The notes below the pieces were generated by a model. That model searched no databases, had not been told where the DNA came from, and saw only the letters and a program-made list of their open reading frames with translations. Positions 2,866 through 31,904 of a stretch of 38,168 bases of DNA are shown here, piece by piece. Numbering within the stretch: the first letter of the stretch is position 1; every line of letters starts with the position of its first letter. The position numbers and the translations under genes were made by a program. This DNA is from Oscillibacter sp. Lineage in GTDB: Bacteria > Bacillota > Clostridia > Oscillospirales > Oscillospiraceae. Location: NCBI RefSeq assembly GCF_028693505.1, contig NZ_JAQUVF010000022.1, forward strand, positions 1-38,168, written 5' to 3'.

Positions 2866-2986
2866 GTAAAACCTGATTTTCAGCGAGAACGGGCGGTTGT
2901 TCATAATTTGTTCATGATTCTTCTATTCATTTCAGCTATGGTACAAGTAGATGCATTATCGGTAAGGAATGATATGGAGGTCGCAT

Positions 2987-5900
2987 ATGAAAGGATTTTT
3001 GACAAAGAAGCTCCCGGCCTTTGCGCTGGCCGTGATGATGGTCGTAAGCCTGATGCCTGCCGCCATGGCGACGGACTGCGGCCACAACAACTGGAGCAGC
3101 TGGCAAAAGCTGAACGACACACAGCATCAGCGCAAATGTCTCACCAGCGGCTGCCCCGGCACGCAGGAGGCCAACCACAACTGGTCCGCCGCCTACGAAA
3201 CAGACGCATCCACCCACTGGAAAAAGTGCGCCGACTGCGGCGCGCAAACCACCCACGAATCCCACGTCTACAACGGCGCCATGAAATATGATGCCTCCAA
3301 CCACTGGGATCAATGCACGGTGTGCGGGTATCGGGAAAATCTGGGCGGCCACGTGGATTTGAATAACGACGGCAAGTGCGATACCTGCGGATATTCCACG
3401 GGGACCGCCAACATCACCGTCACCTTTATGAACGGCGCCAAGACCTATCAGACCCAGAGCGTGAAAAAGGACGCCTCTCCCTCCAACCCGGGCACCCCCA
3501 CCAAGTCCTCCTCCGGCAGCACGGAGTATACCTTTAAGGGCTGGAGCAAGAAGGACCCGGGCACTTCCGCTTTGTACGACGGGCAGTCCTATCTCTCCTC
3601 TTCCGAGGTTTCCAAAACCGCGCTTTCCTCCAACACGACGTATTATGCCCTTTACACCAAGGGCACCGGCGATCTCACCTGGAAGGTAAAGCCCGGCAAC
3701 GAGATCAAATTTGACCGCTCCGATTTCAAGGACCTTTATGAAGATCAATACGACGACACCTTCCTCTACGTCAACTTTGAGGCCGACAGTTCTCTTAAGA
3801 CCTCCAACGGCGTGCTGTATTCCAACCGCGCCGCCACGGGCGAAAAAACCTTCAGCAAGAGCGATCTGGAGGATTATGACTTCTATTACAGCAAGAGCAA
3901 GTACGGCGACTATTCTCTGGACAGCCTGAGCTTTGTGGCCGGCAGCGACGCCAAGGGCAAAACCGTCTCTCTGGACTTCACGCTTTACGGCGAAGAGGAC
4001 GAGCTGGAAGGCACACTGGAAATTGAGATTTCCTCCTCCACCTCCTCTTCCAGCAGCGGAGACATCACCTACAAGGTGGATGTCAAGGACGACGTTTCCT
4101 TTGACCGCTCTGACTTCAAGGAGCTTTTTGACGACGAGTACGACGATGATGACACCTTCCGCTATCTCACCTTCTCCCCCGGCAGCTCCTATAAATCCTC
4201 CAACGGCTACCTCTATTATGACTACGACGGCAAGGAAGAGGAAAAGTTTACCAAAGCGGAGCTGGAGGACAACGATTTCTATTACAGCTCCAGCAAGTAC
4301 GGCGATTATCCCATTGAGGATCTGAGCTTCGTTTCCGCCAGCGGCTCCGACGGGGAGACCGTGACGCTGGACTTTACGCTCTACGGCGACGACGAGGAGC
4401 TGGAGGGCACGCTGAAGATCCTGATCGGCGACGCGGACGACGACGATGAGGACGAGGGCGACATCACCTACACCCTAAGCAGCGACAAAGAAGCGGACTT
4501 TGACCGCACCGACTTCAGCAAGATCTACAAAGAGGACGCCGACGGTTCCGTCCGCTATGTCAAGTTCTATCCGGACAGCGCCTACAAGTCCGCCGACGGC
4601 TATCTGTACTATGATTACGACGGCAAAAACGAGGAAAAATTTACCAAGAGCGATCTGGAAGAATACGAATTCTATTACAGCTCCAGCGATTACGGCGATT
4701 ACGCCCTCAGCGACCTGACCTTCGTGGCCAGCAGCGGCTTTGACGAGGCGCTGTCCATTGATTTCCGGGTCTACGGCGACAACGACAAGTACGTCAAGGG
4801 TACGCTGGTCATTCAGCCCGCCAAGAGCGCGATCGTCAGCGGCACCGGCTACGGCAACATCCGCTATTATGTCACCACCGGGACTGCGGTGCAGATCAAT
4901 GCCAACGACATCTCCCGCTTCTTTAAGAAGCAGTATCCCGGCAGCACCCTCCAGTCTGTGGAGCTCATCGGCGTTCCCTCCTCCGGCGCGCTGTATTATA
5001 ATTATTACGCCAGTGACCGCAAGCAGCTCACCGCCGGAAACTGCGACGACCAGTCCTTCTATCTGAGCCCCACCTCCAGCCAGTACGACCTGAATCAGCT
5101 CACCTACATTCCTTCCGGTTCCAATTACTGCGGTTCCATTCCCTTTACCGCCACCGGTTCCAACAGCAAGTCCGTACAGGGCTCCATTCTCATCAGCGTC
5201 ACCCGGAGCGCGGTTTCCGAGGTCTACGGCGTCACTCCCAAAAACACCGCCGTCTCCCTGCCCGCCTCCGCGATTTACAACGCCGTTTATAACGCCACCG
5301 GCACCGGCCTTGCCTCCATCCAGCTGCTGGAGCTGCCCACATCCAATGTGGGCGCGGTGAATGTCAGCGGCACCTATGTCTCTCTCGGCGCGGATATCGC
5401 CACCCGGTACACCTACGGCAGCGGCACGCAGCAGATGAGCCAACTGAAATTTGTCCCCGCCAGCGGCTACACCGGCTCTGCGGAGATTCCCTACGTGGCC
5501 TATGACACCGCCGGAAACGCCATTGCCTCCGGCAAATTCTGTCTTGGCATTGTGAACAGCGTCAAGCGCTTTTCCGATGTCAGCTCCTCCACGTGGTGTT
5601 ATAAGTATGTAACGGAGCTGTCGGATGCCGGCGTCATCGGCGGTTATTCCAATGGCTCCTTCCGGCCCGACAACACCGTCACTTACGGCGCGGCCCTGAA
5701 GCTCATCATGCTGGCCGCCGGGTATTCCGAGCAGGCCCCCACCGGCAGCCATACCTTCAGCGGGTATCTCTCCAAGGCGCAGGCGGACGGGCTGGTGTCC
5801 GGCAGCGTGAATCTGGACAGCTCCATCACCCGCCTGCAGGTTTCCCAGCTGGCGGCAAAGGCGATGAAGCTCAACGTTACCAATCTTTCCTCGAACCGGC

Positions 5901-6061
5901 CCTTTACCGACACTGCCGACGTATACGTGCAGGCGCTCAACGCCGCCGGCATCGTGGAAGGATACTTCTCCAATGGCACTAGCACCTTCAAACCCGGCAA
6001 CACCCTCACCCGCGGTCAGATTGCCGCCATTGTCTGGCGGATGCAAAATTACAACGGATAA
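2987..6061 (+). CDS. Large secreted S-layer-homology (SLH) protein with tandem acidic repeats
   Basis: This 1024-residue protein is predicted to be secreted and held at the cell wall. The ATG at 2987 has GGAGG seven to eight bases upstream and starts a signal peptide (MKGFLTKKLPAF... with AMA at the cleavage region). Residues ~30-140 hold a row of H-W-C-x-x-C units. Residues ~145-228 resemble an InlB/Listeria-Bacteroides-type repeat (F-K-G-W-S, Y-Y-A-L-Y). From residue 229 come three clear ~130-residue repeats rich in Asp, Tyr and Ser (FDRSDF, YYSSSKYGDY, TLYGDDEELEGTL) starting at 229, 359 and 492. Two more divergent copies start at about 624 and 745. From ~860 to the end are three SLH domains (KRFSDV, GYSNGSFRPDNTVT, GNTLTRGQIAAIVWRM), which in known families bind pyruvylated wall polysaccharide. 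The repeat domain's function is unknown to me. Confidence 0.88.
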   Translation: MKGFLTKKLPAFALAVMMVVSLMPAAMATDCGHNNWSSWQKLNDTQHQRKCLTSGCPGTQEANHNWSAAYETDASTHWKKCADCGAQTTHESHVYNGAMKYDASNHWDQCTVCGYRENLGGHVDLNNDGKCDTCGYSTGTANITVTFMNGAKTYQTQSVKKDASPSNPGTPTKSSSGSTEYTFKGWSKKDPGTSALYDGQSYLSSSEVSKTALSSNTTYYALYTKGTGDLTWKVKPGNEIKFDRSDFKDLYEDQYDDTFLYVNFEADSSLKTSNGVLYSNRAATGEKTFSKSDLEDYDFYYSKSKYGDYSLDSLSFVAGSDAKGKTVSLDFTLYGEEDELEGTLEIEISSSTSSSSSGDITYKVDVKDDVSFDRSDFKELFDDEYDDDDTFRYLTFSPGSSYKSSNGYLYYDYDGKEEEKFTKAELEDNDFYYSSSKYGDYPIEDLSFVSASGSDGETVTLDFTLYGDDEELEGTLKILIGDADDDDEDEGDITYTLSSDKEADFDRTDFSKIYKEDADGSVRYVKFYPDSAYKSADGYLYYDYDGKNEEKFTKSDLEEYEFYYSSSDYGDYALSDLTFVASSGFDEALSIDFRVYGDNDKYVKGTLVIQPAKSAIVSGTGYGNIRYYVTTGTAVQINANDISRFFKKQYPGSTLQSVELIGVPSSGALYYNYYASDRKQLTAGNCDDQSFYLSPTSSQYDLNQLTYIPSGSNYCGSIPFTATGSNSKSVQGSILISVTRSAVSEVYGVTPKNTAVSLPASAIYNAVYNATGTGLASIQLLELPTSNVGAVNVSGTYVSLGADIATRYTYGSGTQQMSQLKFVPASGYTGSAEIPYVAYDTAGNAIASGKFCLGIVNSVKRFSDVSSSTWCYKYVTELSDAGVIGGYSNGSFRPDNTVTYGAALKLIMLAAGYSEQAPTGSHTFSGYLSKAQADGLVSGSVNLDSSITRLQVSQLAAKAMKLNVTNLSSNRPFTDTADVYVQALNAAGIVEGYFSNGTSTFKPGNTLTRGQIAAIVWRMQNYNG
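3671..5217 (+). repeat. Protein-coding tandem repeat region of the SLH gene
   Basis: Units begin at 3671, 4061 and 4460 with spacings of 390 and 399 nt. A divergent unit begins at 4856 (396 nt later) and a still more divergent one at about 5218. Each starts with a D-L/I-T-Y/W beta-strand-like segment, contains F-D-R-S/T-D-F and ends with a T-L-x-I strand. The first three share long stretches of sequence, which indicates intragenic duplication. Confidence 0.8.
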
Positions 6062-6102
6062 GCGCTTTTGAGATTGAAGCATCGAAATTGAAGCGTTCAG
6101 CA

Positions 6103-6134
6103 AGAGAGGTCCTGCCCACGGGCAGGACCTCTCT
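6103..6134. terminator. Left terminator palindrome flanking repeat copy 1
   Basis: AGAGAGGTCCTGCCC (6103-6117) and GGGCAGGACCTCTCT (6120-6134) form a perfect 15-bp stem with a two-base centre, followed by TTTCGC. It lies about 40 nt after the SLH stop. Nearly the same sequence recurs at 6336-6367. Confidence 0.8.
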
Positions 6135-6335
6135 TTCGCGCACCCCAACAGTCTCACGGCGTTTGCCGCCGGGGCGGCAAAAAAGTGAAATCCATTTTCG
6201 GCCGCGGCCTGTACGTGGTCGAAAACACTATGCGCGAAGCGAGCGTCGAATTGTCCGCTTTCAGCGGATATCTGAGGCGCAGAGCGCAGCGAAACCCCCT
6301 GTCTAAAAAGCCCGGTGGGCTTTTTAGAAAAGCCA

Positions 6336-6367
6336 AGAGAGGTCCTGCCCGCGGGCAGGACCTCTCT
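6336..6367. terminator. Right terminator palindrome flanking repeat copy 1
   Basis: AGAGAGGTCCTGCCC (6336-6350), centre GC, then GGGCAGGACCTCTCT (6353-6367) and TTTCGC. It differs from 6103-6134 by one base in the centre. It ends five bases from the stop codon of the minus-strand gene at 6373, so it is probably that gene's native terminator. Confidence 0.8.
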
Positions 6368-6372
6368 TTCGC

Positions 6373-7518
6373 TCAGTTGACGCGGTATTTTTCCAGCACC
6401 CTGCGGTCCACCTCCACGCCGATCCCTGGCGCGTCGGGGACGCTGACGCAGCCGTCCCGAAATTCGATTTTCCCGTCGATCAGGTCCAGCCGGAAGGGAT
6501 GACTGGACTGATCGTATTCCACCATCGGCTCCACCGGCTTGCAGCAAAGCGGGGTGGGCACCAGCGACGCGATGAATTGCAGCGACGCGGCAAGCCCCAC
6601 GCCGGAGCCCCACACATGGGGGATCAGCGCCGTGTTGTAGCTTTGCGTCAGCACGCCGAGCTTTCGGCACTCGGTAAAGCCGCCGGAGGAGCAGAGGTCC
6701 GGCTGGTAGATATCCAGCGCGCCCCGCTCCAGCCAGCGCCGGAAATTTTGCTTGCCGAACAGGCACTCCCCCGCCGCCAGCTTGGTCCCCGTCAGGTTCC
6801 GCAGCGCCACATAGCCCTCCAAATCCTCCGGCGGGAGCAGCTCCTCTAAAAATTCCAGACGGGCGTCCTCCAGCTCATACAGGATCTGCCGGGCGTTTCC
6901 CAGATTATAGGCGCAGTTGAAGTCGGCCATCAGCATGGTATCATAGCCCAATGCCTCCCGCACCGCCCGGATGTAGTGCACATCGTCCTCCACGCCAAAG
7001 CCCACCTTCAGCTTCATGCCGCGAAAGCCCTTTTCCTTGTAGGAGAGCGCTTCCTCCACTGCCGTCTCCGGATACTTTGCGCCCTGCACCCGGTAAAAGC
7101 CCGTGGCGTAGGCCGGGATTTTGTCCCGGTACTTGCCGCCCAGCAGACGGCAGACCGGCTGGCCCAGGGTTTTCCCGATGGCGTCCCAGATGGCGATATC
7201 AATGCCGCTTTGGGCATTGATGCAGATTCCCTGCTGGCCGATGGGGCGAACGCTGTTGTAAAGCGTTTCCCAAATCACATCCACGTCCAGAAGCTCCTGC
7301 CCGATCACATGGGGCTTGTAGCACTGCTCAATGAAGGACGCCGCCATAAACGGCTGCTGGCGGCCATGGCACAGACATTCGCCGAAGCCGCACACCCCGT
7401 CCATCGTCTCCACCTCCACGATGACCGAGTCCCGCTGATGCACCCACCCTTGCGAAAACTGGAACGGCTGGGCCAGCGGCGCACTGATGATGTGGACCCT
7501 CAAATCCTTGATCTTCAT
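6373..7518 (-). CDS. Mandelate racemase/muconate lactonizing enzyme family protein (sugar-acid dehydratase or cycloisomerase-like)
   Basis: This 381-residue protein belongs to the enolase superfamily, whose members abstract a proton next to a carboxylate using Mg2+ and two opposed bases. The mandelate-racemase-type active site can be read: Lys169-x-Lys171 (GMKLKVG), metal ligands Asp199 (ADFN), Glu225 or 226 (FLEELLPPED) and Glu251 (AAGECLFG), and His301 in PHVWGSGVG. That combination is typical of acid-sugar dehydratases and galactarolactone cycloisomerase-like enzymes; the substrate cannot be read from sequence. The start at 7518 (MKIKDL) is preferred because AAGGG lies nine bases upstream, while an ATG nine bases earlier is too close to it. 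It follows gntR by 29 nt, so the pair is likely an operon controlled by that regulator. Confidence 0.88.
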   Translation of the reverse strand: MKIKDLRVHIISAPLAQPFQFSQGWVHQRDSVIVEVETMDGVCGFGECLCHGRQQPFMAASFIEQCYKPHVIGQELLDVDVIWETLYNSVRPIGQQGICINAQSGIDIAIWDAIGKTLGQPVCRLLGGKYRDKIPAYATGFYRVQGAKYPETAVEEALSYKEKGFRGMKLKVGFGVEDDVHYIRAVREALGYDTMLMADFNCAYNLGNARQILYELEDARLEFLEELLPPEDLEGYVALRNLTGTKLAAGECLFGKQNFRRWLERGALDIYQPDLCSSGGFTECRKLGVLTQSYNTALIPHVWGSGVGLAASLQFIASLVPTPLCCKPVEPMVEYDQSSHPFRLDLIDGKIEFRDGCVSVPDAPGIGVEVDRRVLEKYRVN

Positions 7519-7547
7519 ATCGCTCATCCCTTCTGCCTGATAAAATT

Positions 7548-8252
7548 TTATCTGGTCGGAGAGGCCGGGATCTGTCCGCTCTCCGTCAGAATTCTGCGGG
7601 TGGAGGCCAGATGGGCGCACATGGCATACCTCGCCAGCTCCGCGTCCCGGGCTTTCACGGCCTCCAGAATGTTGCGGTGAAAATGATGCTCCCGCTCGCA
7701 GCAGGACGCGGCGCGGGTCAGCAGAATCTGTTTGTACAAAAGGCCCGTATAGCCGTTGACCATGGCGGTGATGATGGGATTTTTGGCCGAGCGGATCAAT
7801 CCCAGATGGAACGCAAAGTCGCTTTTATAATAGTCGTCCGTGCAGGACTCCCTGCCCTCCATATCCGCCACCAGACGCTCCAGCGCCTCCAGCTCCTCCT
7901 CCGTGACACGCTCCACCGCCAGCGCGCAGGCAAACACCTCCAACGCGCTGCGCACCTCCAGCAAATCTGCGTAGGTCCCGTCCTCCCGCTCAATGAGGTC
8001 CGTGAGGGACTGGGTAAACACCATCTTGCTCCCGTCCACCACCTGAACGCCCTTGCCGTGAATCCGTTTGACATAGCCCCGGGTCTCCAGGGAACGGACC
8101 GCCTCCCGCACGGTGCTGCGGCTGACGCCAAAGCGCTCTGACAAAGCCCCCTCGTTCAAAATAAACCCGGCGGCATCGTATTCCTTGCTTAAAATCATCT
8201 CGCGGATCTGCTCCTGTACCCGATCAATCAACATCATGTGCGCATGCCCCAT
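7548..8252 (-). CDS. GntR family transcriptional regulator, FadR/FCD subfamily
   Basis: This is a 234-residue DNA-binding regulator. Residues ~10-75 form the GntR winged helix-turn-helix, including LSERFGVSRSTVREAVRSLETRGYV and the wing KRIHGKGVQV. Residues ~85-215 form an all-helical FCD ligand-binding domain, with the D...H...H pattern in DFAFHLGLIR and EREHHFHRNILEAV that often binds a metal and an organic acid. It is the first gene of a two-gene unit with a sugar-acid enzyme, so its ligand is probably that pathway's substrate or product. A 17-bp inverted repeat 24 bases upstream of the start is a candidate operator. Start choice is uncertain: the ATG at 8252 has AAGGAA almost touching it, and ATG at 8237 or 8234 is possible. 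Confidence 0.9.
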   Translation of the reverse strand: MGHAHMMLIDRVQEQIREMILSKEYDAAGFILNEGALSERFGVSRSTVREAVRSLETRGYVKRIHGKGVQVVDGSKMVFTQSLTDLIEREDGTYADLLEVRSALEVFACALAVERVTEEELEALERLVADMEGRESCTDDYYKSDFAFHLGLIRSAKNPIITAMVNGYTGLLYKQILLTRAASCCEREHHFHRNILEAVKARDAELARYAMCAHLASTRRILTESGQIPASPTR

Positions 8253-29911: not shown

Positions 29912-30517
29912 ATGAAGATGATTTTCTTAGTGGACGGCGACAACAATATTGGAACCGGCCTCAAGGGCATTGAGCTGCTTTCCGATCAGGATTCCGTTTT
30001 GGTATTCTATCAGAAAACCGGCCTGGCCCTGTCCAAAATTCAAAAGCTCTGTGCCGGTACCAGTGCGGACGTCCAGTATGTGGAAAGCATTCGGGGCGGA
30101 AAAAACTCCATTGATTTCCAGATTATTACGGAGCTTGGCGTGCTGGTTGGAAAGCGGGAGGCGGACTACGCCTACGTCATCAGTCAGGACAAGGGCTATT
30201 CCGCCTCCATCGACGCGCTGCGCGCCCGGTATGCGGACGCCTTTCAGGAGGTGGCGCTGCGCGCCTCCATCGAGGACTGCCTCCACCTCTCTTTCGTTCG
30301 GCAATCCGCCAACCGCCGGGAGCTGTGCAACGCGCTGGTCAAGGAATACGGCGCGGCGCAGGGTGAAGCGCTTTACAACCACATGAAGGCTATTTTCCAA
30401 TCTCCGGAAGTGGTGGAAGTAACGGTGGAAGCGGAAAAGAGCGCCGTCAAACCAACGCGCTCCCGCCGAAACGCCCGCCGCAAAAAGGCCCCGACCGCGG
30501 TAAAGCTCTCCGAATAA
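29912..30517 (+). CDS. NYN/PIN-like domain protein (putative RNase)
   Basis: This 201-residue protein appears to have a PIN/NYN-type nuclease fold. It opens with MKMIFLVDGDNN (acidic Asp8 and Asp10), followed by GKNSIDFQIITELGVLV with a second conserved Asp and YAYVISQDKGYSA with a third, the order expected for the metal-binding acidic residues. Residues ~120-165 form a helical C-terminal segment, and the tail is strongly basic (TRSRRNARRKKAP), consistent with nucleic-acid binding. It could be a small RNase; target unknown. GGAA lies twelve bases upstream of the ATG, a weak ribosome site. The stop is four bases before the left palindrome of repeat copy 2. Confidence 0.7.
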   Translation: MKMIFLVDGDNNIGTGLKGIELLSDQDSVLVFYQKTGLALSKIQKLCAGTSADVQYVESIRGGKNSIDFQIITELGVLVGKREADYAYVISQDKGYSASIDALRARYADAFQEVALRASIEDCLHLSFVRQSANRRELCNALVKEYGAAQGEALYNHMKAIFQSPEVVEVTVEAEKSAVKPTRSRRNARRKKAPTAVKLSE

Positions 30518-30521
30518 CGCA

Positions 30522-30547
30522 AAGGACACACCGTAAGGTGTGTCCTT
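30522..30547. terminator. Left terminator palindrome flanking repeat copy 2
   Basis: AAGGACACACC, loop GTAA, GGTGTGTCCTT: an 11-bp perfect stem four bases after the NYN/PIN gene. It is the exact reverse complement of the palindrome at 30748-30773. Confidence 0.78.
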
Positions 30548-30747
30548 CAGCTTGTCGAAAAAGTCTCACAGAGTTTGCCAACGGGGCGGCAAAAAATTTG
30601 AAATCCGTTTTCGACCGCGGCCTGTACGTGGACGAAAACACTTTGCGCAAAGCGAGCGTCGAATCGTCCGCCGAAAGCGGACATATGAGGCGCAGAGCGG
30701 CGCGAATCCTTTTGTCGAAAAAGCCAACAGGCTTTTTCGACAGTCTC

Positions 30748-30773
30748 AAGGACACACCTTACGGTGTGTCCTT
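30748..30773. terminator. Right terminator palindrome containing the YibE/F stop codon
   Basis: AAGGACACACC, loop TTAC, GGTGTGTCCTT, then TTTTCTTTT on the plus strand. The loop holds the minus-strand stop codon at 30759-30761, and the stem encodes the last residues of the YibE/F protein. Confidence 0.8.
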
Positions 30774-31904
30774 TTTCTTTTGCGTCAGCAAAAAGCCGCT
30801 GGTGATGGCCGTAAGGGGCGCCACCGTTACAAGGCCAAAAGAGCCGACAATGGTATGGACGATCTCTGCCGCCACATACTTATAGTTGAGGATGAAGGAT
30901 ACCGGCGTCCCCTGGGCCATGAACACCATCAAAAGCGCGATGTAACTGCCGGAATAGGCCAGCAGCAGCGTTGTGGTGGTGGAGCCGCAGGCCGCCCGCC
31001 CCACAGCAAAGCCGGAGGCAATCGCCTCCCGGGGACCGATGTCCGGTCGTTTCCGCACCACCTCGTACACCGCGGAGCAGATATCCACCGCCAAATCCAT
31101 CACCGCGCCGGAGGAGCCCAGGAAAATGGACGCCATGAAAATGCGGGTGAGGTCCAGCGTCTGGTAGCCCGCGTAGAGCAGCCTCTCGCTGGACTCCATT
31201 ACCGCGCCGTGGATGCGGAAGAGGTCGGTGAAGGCCACCCCCAGCGCCGCCGTCACGGCAATGCCCAGCGCCGCGCCCGAAGCGGCCGCCAGTAGCCGGC
31301 GGTCATAGCCGTAGATCAGGCTTAGGATCAGCACCGTCAGCACCAAAACCAGCACCAGCGCCACCCACACCGGGTTCCACCCCCGCAGCAGGCACGGCAC
31401 CAGCACCTTCCACATCAGCAGCACCGTCACCACAAACGACAAGATCGCCCGCACGCCGGTGGCTCCGGCAAACGCCACCAGCAGCAGCAAAAAGAGTCCC
31501 GCCAGCAGCGCCTCCTTGTCCAGCCGGTAGTGATCGGTCATGGAGACTGTGGAGATGGTCTCGCCGCTGTGGCTTACCACCACGAAAGCGATATCCCCCG
31601 GGGCAAAGAGCTTATCCTGCGCCAGCGAGCCGTTCAGGCGGTTGACGGCAGTCACGGTCTGCCCCTCGAACTGCCCGCCCAGCAATCGGACGGTGCAGCG
31701 CTGCTCGCCGGTGCGGATCAGCCCCGTGTCCACCAGGTCGCTCTCGTCGGTATCCAGCACCTGCGCGCGGACCCGGTCCGCGTTTTGGTAAACCAGCGCG
31801 CCTTCATAGCCGGTGGGCAGCGCGATCAAAATTGCCAGTAAAATCAGGGATACCACCACCGGTCCCCACGTGCCGCCAAGGCGGTCGGATCGTGTTTTTT
31901 TCAT
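30759..31904 (-). CDS. YibE/F family membrane protein
   Basis: This 381-residue protein has an N-terminal transmembrane helix (residues ~12-30), an extracytoplasmic segment of about 110 residues and then about seven further hydrophobic helices, the YibE/F pattern. LLVAFAGATGVRAILSFV, FLGSSGAVMDLAVDICSA and AVGRAACGSTTTTLLLAYSGSYI are characteristic. The function of YibE/F proteins is not established; a transport role is often assumed. ATG 31904 has GGAGG four to five bases upstream. It follows the phosphatase gene on the same strand. Its last codons and stop lie inside the right palindrome of repeat copy 2. Confidence 0.88.
   Translation of the reverse strand: MKKTRSDRLGGTWGPVVVSLILLAILIALPTGYEGALVYQNADRVRAQVLDTDESDLVDTGLIRTGEQRCTVRLLGGQFEGQTVTAVNRLNGSLAQDKLFAPGDIAFVVVSHSGETISTVSMTDHYRLDKEALLAGLFLLLLVAFAGATGVRAILSFVVTVLLMWKVLVPCLLRGWNPVWVALVLVLVLTVLILSLIYGYDRRLLAAASGAALGIAVTAALGVAFTDLFRIHGAVMESSERLLYAGYQTLDLTRIFMASIFLGSSGAVMDLAVDICSAVYEVVRKRPDIGPREAIASGFAVGRAACGSTTTTLLLAYSGSYIALLMVFMAQGTPVSFILNYKYVAAEIVHTIVGSFGLVTVAPLTAITSGFLLTQKKKDTP

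Follow-up and report, generated by a model that had tools for sequence, protein, structure and literature searches.

A repeat of about 200 bp that occurs twice in the analysed window (the whole 38,168-nt stretch of Oscillibacter sp. DNA) is very probably, at roughly 0.88, a non-autonomous, MITE-type element of the hairpin-targeting IS1182 group, with the hairpin itself as target-site duplication. No transposase gene lies between the duplications, and the element probably borrows an IS1182-type transposase. Both window copies are listed with their hairpins and neighbouring genes in Table 1.

Table 1. Positions of the two element copies in the window, their duplicated hairpins, structured cores and flanking genes.
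Feature	Position	Strand	Remarks
Flanking gene, SLH-domain protein	2969..6061	+	Pfam PF00395; convergent with 6373..7620
Left hairpin copy (target-site duplication), first element	6101..6139		38 of 39 bases identical to 6334..6372
First element copy	6140..6333	+	Outer ends diverged from the family
Structured core, first copy	6156..6293	+	One long-range stem plus stem-loops; 141.7 bits with covariance model R1, match 1-139 (copy itself included in the model's alignment)
Subterminal hairpin of first element	6302..6328	+	Inverted repeat I4
Right hairpin copy, first element	6334..6372		Duplicated-hairpin comparison with 6101..6139
Flanking gene, enolase superfamily (mandelate racemase type)	6373..7620	-	Pfam PF13378 and PF02746
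Flanking gene, PIN7-domain protein	29912..30517	+	Pfam PF18475
Left hairpin copy, second element	30522..30547		24 of 26 bases identical to 30748..30773
Second element copy	30548..30747	+	Ends IS1182-type: left CAGCTTGTCGAAAAAG, right (reverse complement) GAGACTGTCGAAAAAG
Structured core, second copy	30568..30706	+	R1 match 1-139, 136.6 bits (copy also in the model's alignment)
Right hairpin copy, second element	30748..30773		T-run follows
Flanking gene, YibE/F-like protein	30759..31904	-	Pfam PF07907; query for empty sites

A first-pass annotation of this DNA had reported that the palindrome at 6103–6134 recurs at 6336–6367 within about 39 shared bp, and 6101–6139 and 6334–6372 are indeed identical at 38 of 39 bases. 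The palindrome arms in these intervals measure 16 and 17 bp; repeat detection alternatively returned 42 nt at 95%. Its estimate that the core between the palindromes is about 84% like a second site was equally accurate (84% match to 30559–30725). The label "terminator" holds in part: a T-run follows the right hairpin of the second copy, but the first copy is no more terminator-like than shuffled sequence, with one site called around it, on the minus strand only and none on the plus strand, against a shuffled mean of 1.0. The right-hand palindrome had also been taken for the native one. This found no support, and neither palindrome is preferable as native because both copies of a target-site duplication stem from one original.

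Against a profile of IS1182-type ends, the two ends of the second copy, which directly adjoin the duplication (offset 0), scored 24.9 bits and 20.7 bits; those of the first copy scored −21.4 (left) and −1.1 (right). Recognizable IS1182-type ends are gone from the first copy at 6134–6160 and 6317–6335, yet a single base distinguishes its paired hairpins. Gene conversion between them is a possible event that would explain this combination. The hairpin pair of the second copy, missed in the first-pass annotation, is unrelated in sequence to that of the first. The YibE/F ORF (30759–31904) has its stop codon in the loop of the right hairpin at 30748–30773.

The host assembly (G000; 2.06 Mb, 49 contigs, 97.65% complete) contains 20 matches to the element at E up to 0.001, comprising 14 with both flanks, two halves at contig ends (L010 and L012) and four fragments (L017–L020). 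Full-length copies are 71–86% identical to the first window copy, indicating that the family is not young. A hairpin pair surrounds 12 of the 14 both-flank copies, and the hairpin sequence differs from site to site. In an ungapped comparison of left and right flanks, these 12 copies scored above all 182 mismatched flank pairings (control maximum 14; L009 narrowly, at 15), so the pairing is not due to chance. Identity within pairs ranges from 87 to 100% (27/31 to 33/33). The two exceptions, by reading, are L007, with half a hairpin left on the right, and L013, whose only hairpin is on the right. Both contig-end halves carry, by reading, an identical hairpin on their outer sides; L010 lies at the end of contig C1 and L012 at the start of C17, both contigs being apparently broken inside a single element copy. 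In the truncated fragment L018 the first stem of the element runs straight into a T-run, leaving a remnant that resembles a terminator.

The duplications follow the hairpins closely, with both edges no more than 2 nt from the stem base in eight of the 12 duplicated cases. Base composition around them is asymmetric: the A fraction is 0.52 before the left hairpin versus 0.29 before the right, and the T fraction 0.58 after the right hairpin versus 0.35 after the left.

Element-type copies were also found in other species of the genus, where six of nine are paired (L023, L185, L190, L186, L191 and L193) and three are not (L022, L025 and L026). The L186 pair has a changed loop, and its score of 14 is no better than the best mismatched control. 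In genome G223, L185 and L190 stand in tandem in the order hairpin-element-hairpin-element-hairpin, with the same hairpin three times. No hairpin duplication was detected at 15 repeats related to the element only through all or part of the core (eight from the genus and seven from G030, which is of the same order but another family), where best scores were 8–15; the scan left out L027, L035, L036, L039 and short matches in G222, G024 and G141. The highest of these scores, 15 at L040, is a match some 400 bases off, and L194 scored 9. A second type of dispersed repeat in the same genus (L028, L029, L032, L033, L034, L040, L041 and L044) has about 50 core bases in common with the element (ATTTTCGCCGCGGCGTGTACGTGGCGAAAATAC); it has other flanking hairpins, and no target duplication was seen at it.

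Orthologous sites lacking the element were sought next to the second window copy and at other host loci. The gene at 30759–31904 was matched in five of 60 other genomes of the genus searched. In G215 and G223 a convergent PIN7 gene lies alongside (75% and 67% identity), with one clear hairpin between the genes and no element (L180 and L183); rows L181, L182 and L184, in which the neighbouring PIN7 gene is missing, were not counted. Right-flank DNA of seven further loci was searched in four genomes, the left flank being placed by blastn and the hairpin by reading. Single-hairpin empty sites were obtained for four of these loci: L198 for locus L011, L207 for L005, L203 for L009, and L210 and L211 for L006. 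Deviating sites were L208 (locus L011), with two unlike hairpins, and L209 (L006), with a weak hairpin only. Also uncounted were L199–L202 (locus L014), in which the genes are several hundred bases further apart, L204, L206, L212 and L213, without left-flank synteny, and L205, L214, L215 and L216. Hairpins at the empty sites are orthologous in position and different in sequence from those of the host. For the copy at 6103–6367 no empty site was found, the right-hand gene having no match (E 1e-80) in the 60 other genomes of the genus.

The first-pass annotation had offered, as one explanation, a mobile element that targets or copies terminator hairpins where genes converge, and had proposed looking for paired palindromes around all copies and for single palindromes at empty sites. 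Both tests support it: run genome-wide, the one found pairs around 12 of 14 testable copies, and the other one clear hairpin, by reading, at seven orthologous empty sites of five loci. Two independent terminators might be expected wherever genes converge, and a rough rule based on the longest ORFs does place 11 of the 14 copies between convergent reading frames. However, the two hairpins of a pair are 87–100% identical and unlike the hairpins of other sites, mismatched pairings never exceeded 14, and the seven empty sites each hold one clear hairpin. Chance, or twin terminators of separate origin, was rejected on the mismatched-flank control and the empty sites, and we give it virtually no probability.

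The same arrangement is found around autonomous IS1182 elements, a family overlooked when the first-pass annotation judged the layout unusual for an IS. The NCBIfam IS1182 model (NF033551) had a match in 20 of 60 genomes; the host, one of the 60, had none. Locus L071, at a contig end in a genome of this genus, has a hairpin followed immediately by CAGCCTGTCGAAAAG at the IS end, and the transposase of this locus, used as a family-wide query, had matches in eight of 150 genomes. At L083 the IS has a 31-bp hairpin on both sides and ends CAGTTTGTCAAAAA. The IS at L089 likewise lies between duplicated hairpins, and these are two of the seven loci scanned in this set; the others have one hairpin-abutting end or are on short contigs. 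The transposases of L081, L083, L085 and L089 score above the NCBIfam IS1182 cut-off and contain DUF772 and DDE domains. Exact duplications of at least 18 bases were absent from the relatives' IS1182 loci L051–L080, among which the ends of L052, L053 and L054, as read, are of another type.

A wider survey covered one genome per species in 84,980 species. Of 260 confirmed loci 80 were kept, and 16 were then dropped because a flank was too short, leaving 64. These loci are partly non-independent, as eight are from one complete Chakrabartyella piscis genome and seven from AP018533.1; L098 and L111 are apparently the same insertions as L083 and L089. A duplication score of at least 15 was reached in 43 of the 64, whereas none of 200 random pairings scored above 12. 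Nearly all of these duplications (42 of 43) contain a stem of at least six pairs, and in 38 both edges lie no more than 2 nt from the stem base. Their length ranges from 17 to 64 bp, with a median of 29 bp; direct repeats of IS1182 reportedly reach about 60 bp in the ISfinder family table. All eight C. piscis loci are duplicated, each with a different sequence and one with a stem of only five. No duplication was detected at 21 of the 64 loci, including four of the seven from AP018533.1, the other three being duplicated. The A/T bias recurs in 42 IS loci, at 0.53 versus 0.32 for A and 0.52 versus 0.33 for T (outer versus inner sides).

In plasmid records, duplicated hairpins of 22–24 bp were found at three of four IS1182-type loci read (L097, L096 and L094, with ISEfa7 among them) and not, on reading, at L095. 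As ISEfa7 belongs to Enterococcus faecium, hairpin duplication extends beyond one bacterial family. On plasmid pTVN of Thermocaproicibacter melissae (L093), a type III-A CRISPR cas10 gene has as its neighbour an IS1182 transposase that shares 72% identity with the L071 query.

The ends in the survey mostly read CAGnnTGTCRAAAAA. The end profile was compiled from 65 ends of 33 loci and is biased towards clean ends, since 10 of the 43 loci were excluded by eye for a shifted automatic boundary or an atypical end. Of 12 element copies, 11 have at least one end that scores above the 99% background of this profile, with offsets between −1 and 4 relative to the duplication; the exception is the first window copy, and L011 passes only narrowly. 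No IS1182 transposase was found in the incomplete host assembly with NF033551 (E up to 0.001) or PF13751 (E up to 0.01).

This negative result would suit a different helper that duplicates palindromes, such as a Cas1-type integrase. Cas1-type integrases nick both ends of a palindromic repeat, and CRISPR spacer acquisition leaves a copy of the palindrome on either side of the insert, an outcome that resembles the present one. Spacers, however, are not repeated elements with conserved ends, and IS1182 elements of the same taxonomic family have similar ends and the same duplication. We therefore consider a helper of this kind highly improbable.

The interior of the element contains a covarying core. 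An alignment of 23 copies gave a consensus fold of 36 pairs, with 96.3% of cells paired. Changes on both sides were observed at 17 of the 36 pairs, compared with 7.8 (sd 1.9) in shuffles and 3–6 in slid versions, the fold being derived from the same alignment as the counts; the covariation score was 0.263 versus 0.121. G-U outnumbers A-C by 74 to 19 cells, 44 of the 74 being in two fixed pairs. No Rfam family matched the core at the gathering threshold, the only two matches being sub-threshold (E 0.016 and 0.25). Judged from its sequence, the core is a candidate uncharacterized structured RNA carried by such insertions.

Under strict filters, and with 13 candidates scored per genome, the covariance model R1 matched two genomes, the host and G125, among 245 from the class; G030 has related core copies, yet was not among the R1 matches listed. 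In G125, which also holds the IS of locus L089, 13 core copies were read (L218–L242, even numbers). Their left arm is longer, and in four of the 13 the left end resembles IS1182 by pattern. Paired hairpins flank none of them, and about seven have, by reading, a lone terminator-like hairpin immediately to their right. The core was absent from the IS1182 loci examined (nhmmer, E up to 0.001), which speaks against an interior derived by internal deletion of an IS. Together with the G125 copies, this absence suggests that the core may be cargo acquired by these ends or a more ancient repeat of independent history.

On another reading, the repeat does not move by a transposase and is first of all an RNA element: a structured 3' UTR that picks up or copies nearby terminators by recombination or template switching. 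The covarying interior (17 of 36 pairs against a shuffle mean of 7.8), the excess of G-U over A-C (with the two fixed pairs contributing 44) and the cores found without paired hairpins in other genomes are in its favour. It nevertheless appears very improbable to us, as autonomous IS1182 elements in which no core was detected show the same hairpin duplication and the element has their kind of ends. Boundaries that coincide with IS ends are also unexpected from template switching.

DDE transposases join the 3' ends of an element to both target strands, and the stagger between the joints becomes the duplication. For the MITE-type element favoured here, an IS1182-group transposase, supplied in trans or since lost, would choose its target by hairpin-forming sequence rather than by particular letters and link the element to the two strands at the base of the stem-loop. 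After gap repair a complete hairpin would flank the element on either side, and the hairpin would thus set the length of the duplication (17–64 bp). The A-run stays with the left hairpin and the T-run with the right, which suggests that each flanking gene would still have a terminator, located beyond the element, and that insertion would be mild; the element itself would be transcribed as 3' UTR. A bolder proposition, of which we are on balance sceptical, is that a group of DDE transposases recognizes its target solely by the secondary structure of the DNA, with a 17 to 64 bp duplication dictated by the hairpin. An RNA-structured element would exploit this, each insertion splitting a two-way terminator into two one-way ones and the RNA being transcribed from both neighbours without loss of termination. 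The 43 natural autonomous insertions in which the duplication coincides with the hairpin make structure-directed targeting by DDE transposases directly testable, and twin terminators in gut Clostridia may be explained in the same way.

Several known systems resemble the element in part. Group IIC introns insert after terminators and thus share the terminator hairpin as target; to our knowledge, target duplication is not expected of them. A group II intron was rejected here, as the window had no Rfam match to one at gathering thresholds and the element is only about 200 bp long. ISEfa7 and the unnamed plasmid loci are closer, with duplicated 22–24 bp hairpins that abut ends of the type CAnnnTGTAGACAA, but they are autonomous and have another end sequence. 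Bacterial MITEs and the BOX, RUP and SPRITE repeats are likewise small, intergenic, non-coding, structured as transcripts and usually linked to an IS (PMC10969869); in the parts of that article available to us, neither duplicated terminators nor IS1182 are mentioned.

Hairpin targeting by IS1182 elements is published and MITEs are common. Among the titles and abstracts of the open-licence papers searched, none concerned hairpin duplication by IS1182 or the present element. We did not find in that literature the systematic duplication of a whole hairpin, a duplication that coincides with the hairpin over a fourfold range of length, or a MITE that does so with a conserved, RNA-like interior, and these features appear to be new.

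The closest relatives are IS1272 and TnSha1. In the sections seen of the two studies (PMC5678879, PMC4923244), both belong to the IS1182 family and target inverted repeats or terminator hairpins without sequence consensus, and four near-gene insertions of IS1272 lie immediately downstream of genes. An IS-neighbourhood survey, as far as its accessible text goes, also lists IS1182 among the families over-represented between convergent genes (PMC9208149). Five target hairpins of TnSha1 and IS1272 are terminators confirmed by RNA-seq, and the portion of Furi et al. available describes deletion of the hairpin without duplication (PMC4923244). According to the part of Wan et al. consulted, IS1272 replaces its hairpin, and hairpin duplication is drawn only as a possible pathway b (PMC5678879). 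Removal or replacement of the target hairpin in these systems, as far as the excerpts describe it, differs from the duplication of the whole hairpin seen here. Replacement of the stem-loop in the manner of IS1272 was rejected for the present elements, given hairpins on both sides of 12 of 14 element copies and 43 of 64 IS loci. The present elements act as pathway b predicts, and provide natural evidence for a hairpin-duplicating route so far only drawn as a possibility for IS1182-type transposition.
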